A stretch of 58,702 bases of DNA from an uncultured Flavobacteriales bacterium. Lineage in GTDB: Bacteria; Bacteroidota; Bacteroidia; Flavobacteriales_E; Vicingaceae. The stretch lies in contig CAJXMH010000018.1 in the NCBI GenBank assembly GCA_913056345.1, forward strand, positions 1 to 58,702, in the 5' to 3' direction. Both the position numbers and the translations under genes were made by a program. Numbering within the stretch: the first letter of the stretch is position 1; the number at the start of each line of letters is the position of its first letter. The notes under the pieces were generated by a model. The model made no database searches. It was not told the DNA's origin and was given only the letters and a program-made list of their open reading frames with translations. This document shows positions 6,032 through 7,010 of the stretch, in pieces.

Positions 6032-6116
6032 ATTGAGTAAAACGCTGATTTGCTAAAATAATTAAAGTATCGTTCGCAAGTATCACTTTTAGTAACACGA
6101 GAGACTTACAACTATT

Positions 6117-6197
6117 CCCCGCTGATTCCGCTGAAAAACGCAGAGATGTTAGAATTAGTGATAATAAATATCTGCGCTAGTCTGTATAATCTGCGGG
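6117..6197 (+). repeat. Hairpin repeat unit A
   Basis: 81 bp from CCCCGCTGATT to AATCTGCGGG. The outer arms pair as CCCGC/GCGGG and GATT/AATC, and the inner arms as CGCAGA/TCTGCG. It differs from unit B at only a few positions in the 'AGATGTTAGAATTAGTG' core. Confidence 0.85.
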
Positions 6198-6217
6198 CAA
6201 CTGAAAATAGATTGGAA

Positions 6218-6297
6218 CCCCACTGATTTCGCTAAAAACGCAGAGATGTTAGAATTAGTGAGAATAAATATCTGCGCTAGTCTTTACGATCTGCGGG
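6218..6297 (+). repeat. Hairpin repeat unit B
   Basis: 80 bp, nearly identical to unit A over the central and right parts. Its right arm, TCTGCGCTAGTCTTTACGAT followed by CTGCGGG, is identical to that of the half unit D beyond the gene. Confidence 0.85.
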
Positions 6298-6317
6298 AAT
6301 TGAAATGAGACTATACT

Positions 6318-6398
6318 CCCATAGATTTCGCTGATTGTCGCAGAGTTTGGCAAAAGTAATATTGTTTTATTTCTGCGATTATCTGTGTGATCTGCGGG
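6318..6398 (+). repeat. Hairpin repeat unit C (most diverged)
   Basis: 81 bp with a weaker left arm (CCCATAGATTTCGCTG) and right arm TTTCTGCGATTATCTGTGTG followed by ATCTGCGGG. It is the last unit before the GxxExxY gene and its core has diverged from A and B. Confidence 0.75.
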
Positions 6399-6459
6399 AG
6401 CTATTTAGATGATAGCAAACTTCTAATGATAATTTAATTTCATCTTATTTAGTATGGCT

Positions 6460-6837
6460 TCAAAGATTATTGACTTTTCTGTATATACCTTCATTGATCC
6501 TATCAACATTAAAATTGACTAATATGCCTAACTTTAAATCTGTTAATTTAAGGTAGGTAAGGACTTGTTTATGATGAACTTTAGCTAATAATTCCACTGA
6601 CTTAACTTCAATTAGGACTTTTTTTTCTACAAGCAAATCTAATCTGAATCCCAGACCTAATTTTGTACCTTCATAATAGACAGGTACTGGAACTTCTTTT
6701 TCTACACTTAATCCTTCCCTTTTAAGTTCATGCATGAGAGCATGACAATAAACAGATTCTAACAAACCGGGACCTAATTCATTGAATACTTTAAAAATTG
6801 CTCCTCTAATTTTATAAGAAATGTCGTTTTCAGTCAT
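6460..6837 (-). CDS. GxxExxY family protein (PD-(D/E)XK nuclease-like fold)
   Basis: This 125-residue protein carries the family motif GLLESVY at residues 24-30. Downstream are D67, E77-V-K79 and Q91, which fit the D...ExK...Q active-site order of PD-(D/E)XK nuclease-like proteins. Members are small and widespread, and their biochemical role is, as far as I know, unproven. The gene lies inside an array of ~80-bp hairpin repeats and is AT-richer by eye than the hut genes on both sides, which suggests separate acquisition. ATG at 6837 is the only good start. A nuclease acting on its own flanking repeats is a speculation worth testing, not a result. Confidence 0.85.
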   Translation of the reverse strand: MTENDISYKIRGAIFKVFNELGPGLLESVYCHALMHELKREGLSVEKEVPVPVYYEGTKLGLGFRLDLLVEKKVLIEVKSVELLAKVHHKQVLTYLKLTDLKLGILVNFNVDRINEGIYRKVNNL

Positions 6838-6878
6838 TAAGTTACTTTTTGTCTAAAGTACAAAAGCAAATTAAAATA

Positions 6879-6907
6879 CATCTGCGCTAGTCTTTACGAT
6901 CTGCGGG
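6879..6907 (+). repeat. Half repeat unit D (right arm only)
   Basis: Only the right arm (CATCTGCGCTAGTCTTTACG then ATCTGCGGG) is present. The left arm, expected around 6827-6875, is replaced by the 5' end and promoter region of the GxxExxY gene. That makes this the apparent boundary of the gene-bearing insert. Confidence 0.75.
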
Positions 6908-6926
6908 AATTGAAAAAAGATTGAAA

Positions 6927-7007
6927 CCCCGCTGGTACCGCTAAAAAACGCAGAGACTTAAGAAGTAGTGAGAATGAATATCTGCGCTAATTTGCGCGAT
7001 CTGCGGG
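6927..7007 (+). repeat. Hairpin repeat unit E
   Basis: 81 bp, CCCCGCTGGTACCGC to GCGCGATCTGCGGG. It is full-length with both arms and ends 3 bp before the hutG stop codon (7011-7013 on the minus strand). Confidence 0.8.
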
Positions 7008-7010
7008 AAA

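Follow-up and report, generated by a model that had tools for sequence, protein, structure and literature searches.

A GxxExxY nuclease gene among inverted-arm hairpins: a probable REPIN/RAYT-like family in Bacteroidota

Introduction

Does a small nuclease gene lying in a tandem array of hairpins belong to those hairpins, as a RAYT belongs to its REP sequences? The question is raised by a window of 58,702 nucleotides (the whole stretch of DNA analysed) from an uncultured Flavobacteriales bacterium (contig CAJXMH010000018.1 of assembly GCA_913056345.1), in which a 29-nt arm and its inverse (L/R) occur five times, in units of about 83 bp, around a GxxExxY gene. The original prediction proposed that the gene and the repeats may travel or recombine together and that the protein could act on the hairpins as REP-associated transposases act on REPs.

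The rayt genes sit between inverted REPs, which pair up as hairpin doublets and also occur in tandem arrays, and every RAYT is matched by a REP class of its own (PMC2817692, PMC3116915). No description of a functional role of GxxExxY proteins (PF13366, TIGR04256), or of their association with hairpins, was found in the open-access literature. Our data suggest that the gene and the hairpins probably constitute one REPIN/RAYT-like family, in which a PD-(D/E)XK enzyme replaces the HUH transposase and would mobilise the hairpins. Class-matched hairpins would give the GxxExxY family a testable function, and the link would account for intergenic palindromes of a common type and present an instance of evolutionary convergence on REPIN/RAYT.

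Results

The array and its gene

The predicted five hairpin units of about 80 bp around the gene were confirmed, with starts 100 bp apart where units are adjacent and linkers of about 17-20 bp. The features of the locus are as follows.

6032..7010: inserted block of hairpin array and GxxExxY gene, between ftcD and an arginase-family gene, delimited by gap comparison with relatives
6117..6200: hairpin unit A; left arm 6117-6145, right arm 6170-6198
6217..6300: hairpin unit B, diverged; left arm 6217-6245, right arm 6270-6298
6317..6401: hairpin unit C; left arm 6317-6345, right arm 6371-6399
6318..6908, minus strand: putative gene-bearing element in the order arm - gene - arm' - loop - arm
6460..6837, minus strand: GxxExxY gene, 125 aa, PD-(D/E)XK nuclease (D67, E77, K79; E27, Y30; Q91xxxY95)
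6878..6908: half-unit D; right arm only (plus strand), which in the sense of the gene is the arm immediately upstream of it
6927..7010: hairpin unit E; left arm 6927-6955, right arm 6980-7008

Tandem Repeats Finder reported a period of 100 across 6117-6332 (84% matches, score 297). The arms are built of CGC[A/T]GAT-type boxes with CCCGC...GCGGG at the outer end. When the units were folded as single-stranded DNA and compared with dinucleotide shuffles, units A and C formed full-length hairpins clearly better than the shuffles (z -4.1 and -3.2), unit E formed one marginally better (z -2.0), and unit B folded no better (z -1.1). An Rfam search returned only a chance miRNA match (E=0.27).

The protein matched TIGR04256 (E=4.7e-42, 143 bits, cut-off 35) and PF13366 (E=1.4e-41, 142 bits, cut-off 22) over its full length and above both curated cut-offs, which places it in the GxxExxY family as predicted. 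Residues D67, E77, K79, E27 and Y30 were invariant in 30 aligned sequences, and the QxxxY motif was at least 90% conserved. The AF2 model (pLDDT 95.8) had Cas4 SSO0001 as its top structural match (Z 9.5, 99 residues), followed by the restriction-like 3ijm (Z 8.5) and the Holliday resolvase Hjc (Z 7.0); core fold and D, ExK active site were those of the PD-(D/E)XK superfamily. The median dN/dS of 27 GxxExxY pairs was 0.08. An intact, invariant active site, a confident model and this purifying selection indicate that the protein is kept as an enzyme. A PDB search by sequence gave no credible match, and PADLOC gave only weak Cas4 and RT-PDDEXK matches. GxxExxY proteins were present in about half of the sampled Bacteroidota genomes (195/392). 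Cargo of a phage or plasmid was considered as well and rejected, since the phage search returned zero matches and the plasmid search seven distant relatives, all on non-mobilizable records.

Unit D had been described as lacking the half that the gene's 5' region occupies. Its left half is indeed absent; this need not reflect a deletion, because the same gene-sense order, arm - gene - arm' - loop - arm, was found at locus L156 of G006 and L034 of G029. From this shared order, half-unit D, the gene and unit C can be read as one gene-bearing element of about 590 bp inside an array of gene-less copies. The order is not general, since arrangements differ elsewhere, as in the plain arm-gene-arm of L188 and L038.

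Further copies of the unit and of GxxExxY genes had been proposed as a check, and the window genome (99.7% complete) was searched for both. It holds one PF13366 gene, and BLAST found the unit at the window array only. A looser, arm-specific pattern matched 10 times, seven of them inside the array, whereas a reversed control pattern gave no match. The pattern also picked up three degenerate right arms on contig C39, with no gene there; their neighbour is presumably aspS, named by reading its sequence. Along this contig (locus L213, 1860-2105 and 4140-4320), degenerate right arms of the CGCAGAT and CACAAAG classes lay among 8-bp repeats, without left arms and without a gene, in an apparent graveyard of several element classes.

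The array and gene as an insertion

The cluster of hutI, arginase, ftcD and a 756-aa ORF is conserved among relatives. The gap between arginase and ftcD is 979 bp in the window genome versus 2, 11, 11, 60 and 61 bp in five relatives (G014, G009, G019, G007 and G018), and is 179-216 bp and hairpin-free in G021 and G011. Because the gap in these relatives is short and free of hairpins, the array and gene between arginase and ftcD are an insertion. In G006 the same gap measures 851 bp and contains some seven gene-less tandem hairpins of the window kind, which shows that the array can occur at this site apart from the gene.

A second insertion was seen in G029. Its yidD-S41 peptidase gap of 594 bp holds TTAA-CACATAG-gene-CTATGTG-TTAA, about 560 bp. 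The gap is about 20, 40 and 99 bp in three congeneric species (G003, G017 and G024), and about 16-99 bp when most of the other relatives with a measurable gap are included; two further relatives had no yidD in the flank. Judged by the short gap in the congeners, the inserted block is arm-gene-arm. This element is flanked by an 11-bp direct repeat, TTAAAAAAATT. Across 19 elements, mainly the CACATAG set of G029, no consistent signal of target-site duplication was detected, with one 22-bp and one 11-bp repeat found. The 22-bp direct repeat, TTAAAAAATTGATAACGAACTC, lies on either side of one gene-less hairpin of G029 (C49, L285, around 205-468), 19-25 bp off the hairpin arms.

Inverted arms around GxxExxY genes

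Loci compared with the window were selected because their protein resembles that of the window, and not on the basis of their arms. In a sequence-blind test, the 250 bp upstream of each gene were compared with the reverse complement of the 250 bp downstream, with regions 700 bp away as the control. GxxExxY flanks had a median score of 20.5 versus 13 in the control regions (n=68, p=5e-14), and flanks of arginase genes, used as a control, showed no excess (p=0.92). Flanks of PF05635 four-helix-bundle genes were complementary like those of GxxExxY genes (n=30, p=2e-9).

The arms near GxxExxY genes consist of two or three direct heptamer boxes spaced 8-10 bp: identical 6-mers at a lag of 8-10 occurred 43-80 times per 10,000 in the flanks and 3-9 times far away. 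Box types were CGC[A/T]GAT, CGCAGAG, CGCAAAG, CACAGAG, CACAGAT, CACAAAG, CACATAG, CATTAAG and CACGGA, among others. In PF05635 flanks, 6-mers recurred at a lag of 7 (also 14 and 21), a recurrence absent in distant DNA.

Box type and protein clade

In 123 genes, arm similarity climbed with protein identity, from a cosine of 0.03 at 30-40% to 0.23-0.24 at 60-85% and 0.51 above 85%. When arms were permuted among copies of the same genome, the observed correlation was never reached (0/500). Mapped on the protein tree for the 79 of 123 genes with a clear box (the 44 without one were left out), box type required 23 changes compared to 47.8 with shuffled labels (0/200). Five CACATAG genes from three families (G029, G039 and G050) formed a single clade, as did three CATTAAG genes; G043 carried several types of box, and most of these went with a separate protein clade.

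Box type thus tracks the protein clade, which shows that a gene and its arms are passed on together. From this covariation we infer that the nuclease recognises boxes of its own class, although linked inheritance without recognition could produce the same pattern.

Gene-less hairpins and the presence of the gene

Besides the gene-bearing form of about 450-680 bp, in which the GxxExxY nuclease lies between inverted arms, gene-less forms of about 80-140 bp carry the same arms and are scattered or in tandem. Among relatives, the CGCAGAT-class arm pattern was found in 21 of 34 genomes with PF13366 versus 2 of 26 without (p=1.4e-5); across Bacteroidota, 50 of 195 gene-bearing versus 7 of 197 gene-free genomes had it (p=1.1e-10), and it was commoner with a gene of the window clade (22/39 versus 28/156 otherwise, p=3.6e-6), all these p-values being nominal because the genomes are related to one another. 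Such searches detect only classes near the pattern, and many of the genomes are drafts. The reversed control pattern had almost no matches across the sampled genomes. For the CACATAG pattern, 28 of 45 matches fell in the three genomes with CACATAG-clade genes, and those in G029 were mostly gene-less hairpins of 110-142 bp between CACATAG boxes and their inverse.

Two genomes were exceptions: G222, with 19 arm matches and no GxxExxY gene, its arms lying in arrays (L267-L269), and G023, with 42 arm matches and no clear CGCAGAT-clade gene. In G023 (L217-L224), a MITE with terminal repeats GTTACTACTCAGCCGCT occurs in eight near-identical copies and contains a CACAGAT/CGCAGAT hairpin. The repeated 29-mers of this genome were therefore rejected as fresh element copies; the hairpin rides inside an unrelated MITE.

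The prediction that gene and hairpins travel together was thus supported by the empty sites, by the yidD/S41 insertion in one of four congeneric species, by the protein-arm covariation and by the tendency of gene-less hairpins to occur in genomes that have the gene. Repeats scattered without association with GxxExxY genes, and the gene occurring elsewhere without them, would have spoken against it; this was not the pattern observed.

Arrays and repeats at other loci

G006 also carries an array of 11 units of 114 bp with the gene inside one unit. On contig C2 of this genome (L212, 1300-2600), a 258-bp tandem repeat present three times comprises a hairpin and the first ~42 codons of a GxxExxY gene, followed by a full CGCAAAG-class gene. 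In G262 the GxxExxY gene itself is tandemly repeated. At an ABC locus of the Winogradskyella group, copies are kept at one site across genera.

Discussion

Comparison with known systems

The analogy with REP and RAYT, drawn in the original prediction, is close. As in REPIN/RAYT (PMC2817692, PMC3116915, PMC3733652), the gene sits between inverted arms that form hairpin doublets, tandem arrays adjoin it, gene copies are few, there are several classes, each matched to one enzyme clade, and gene-less doublets of the resident enzyme's class are dispersed (with G222 and G023 as exceptions). Unlike RAYTs, the enzyme is a 125-aa PD-(D/E)XK nuclease rather than an HUH/Y1 tyrosine transposase, the arms are two or three direct heptamer boxes rather than single palindromes with a GTAG tag, and the GTAG (or CGTC) end tag is absent, the arms ending in CCCGC/GCGGG or CCACATAG/CTATGTGG; the GxxExxY system was studied here mainly in Bacteroidota. 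Because the enzyme is unrelated to HUH transposases, the window system is not a RAYT.

MITEs and insertion sequences with terminal inverted repeats likewise have gene-bearing and gene-less copies that share inverted ends and insert as units, but here there was no consistent target-site duplication, the ends are repeat arrays, and the enzyme lies outside known transposase families. Cas4/RecB-type nucleases share the fold, the D-ExK site and the QxxxY motif, whereas the window protein is about 60% of their size and no CRISPR context was seen in the window. The 23S rRNA IVS/PF05635 genes are also small genes in a loop between inverted arms; their protein fold is unrelated (PMC10053308), their arms have a 7-bp period, and PF13366, not PF05635, was the only match of the window protein.

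Proposed mechanism and alternatives

By analogy with RAYTs, we infer recognition, cleavage and mobilisation in trans by the nuclease. It would recognise boxes of its own class, probably where the DNA is extruded as a hairpin or cruciform or is single-stranded during replication, and would cut at these boxes in the arms. Gene-bearing and gene-less forms would then move in trans, either by copying or by excision and reinsertion, and host repair or replication would complete the movement, in the way proposed for RAYTs and REPINs. The tandem array of the window probably arose via duplication of 100-bp units. Mobility may be slow or lost, or the element domesticated, given that some copies stay at one site across genera.

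It is unlikely that the hairpins are instead moved by another enzyme or by replication slippage, with the GxxExxY gene a passenger or parasite inserting into hairpin loops. PF05635 genes are found in similar hairpins, which means that such loops hold more than one gene family, and the gene-free arrays of G222 and the hairpin-carrying MITE of G023, with its unrelated terminal repeats, would fit as well. However, even inside a single genome the box class goes with the protein clade, PF05635 flanks differ in period, and ATCTGCG hairpins track the presence of GxxExxY genes although 59 of 60 relatives have PF05635 genes.

Quite improbable is a domesticated regulatory pair, in which the hairpins function at the RNA level and are either processed by the nuclease or control it, comparable to type III toxin-antitoxin systems with a tandem-repeat RNA antitoxin. 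The hairpins would also form in RNA, and tandem repeats do adjoin a nuclease gene under purifying selection; yet hairpins occur to either side of the gene and frequently at a long distance, with as many as 66 copies counted by the pattern search, the fold is of a DNase-type PD-(D/E)XK with Cas4 nearest, and gene-bearing units insert as blocks. Ordinary intergenic terminators or BIME-like repeats with the gene as a chance neighbour are very improbable: repeats between genes of an operon-like cluster could terminate or attenuate transcription, but the flank, covariation, co-occurrence and insertion tests contradict this account, and the window genome has its array only at its sole GxxExxY gene.

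A parallel hairpin family

The PF05635 hairpins are a second, parallel hairpin-element family. The REPIN/RAYT-like reading of the GxxExxY hairpins may extend to it, and we tentatively propose a second, independently evolved REPIN/RAYT-like world, in which GxxExxY nucleases mobilise heptamer-box hairpins by cutting, the four-helix-bundle family with its 7-bp-period arms acts likewise, and both are major sources of intergenic repeats in Bacteroidota; this broader proposal is somewhat less probable than not. The window genome has eight PF05635 genes. At loci L124-L153, four-helix-bundle/23S-IVS genes were found between inverted arms of 7-bp-period repeats, such as TTAGGTGTTAGGTATTAGG. In G007 (L225-L236) and G359 (L271), solo GxxExxY-type arms occurred in the order right arm, about 20 bp, left arm, and were bordered by PF05635-type repeats.
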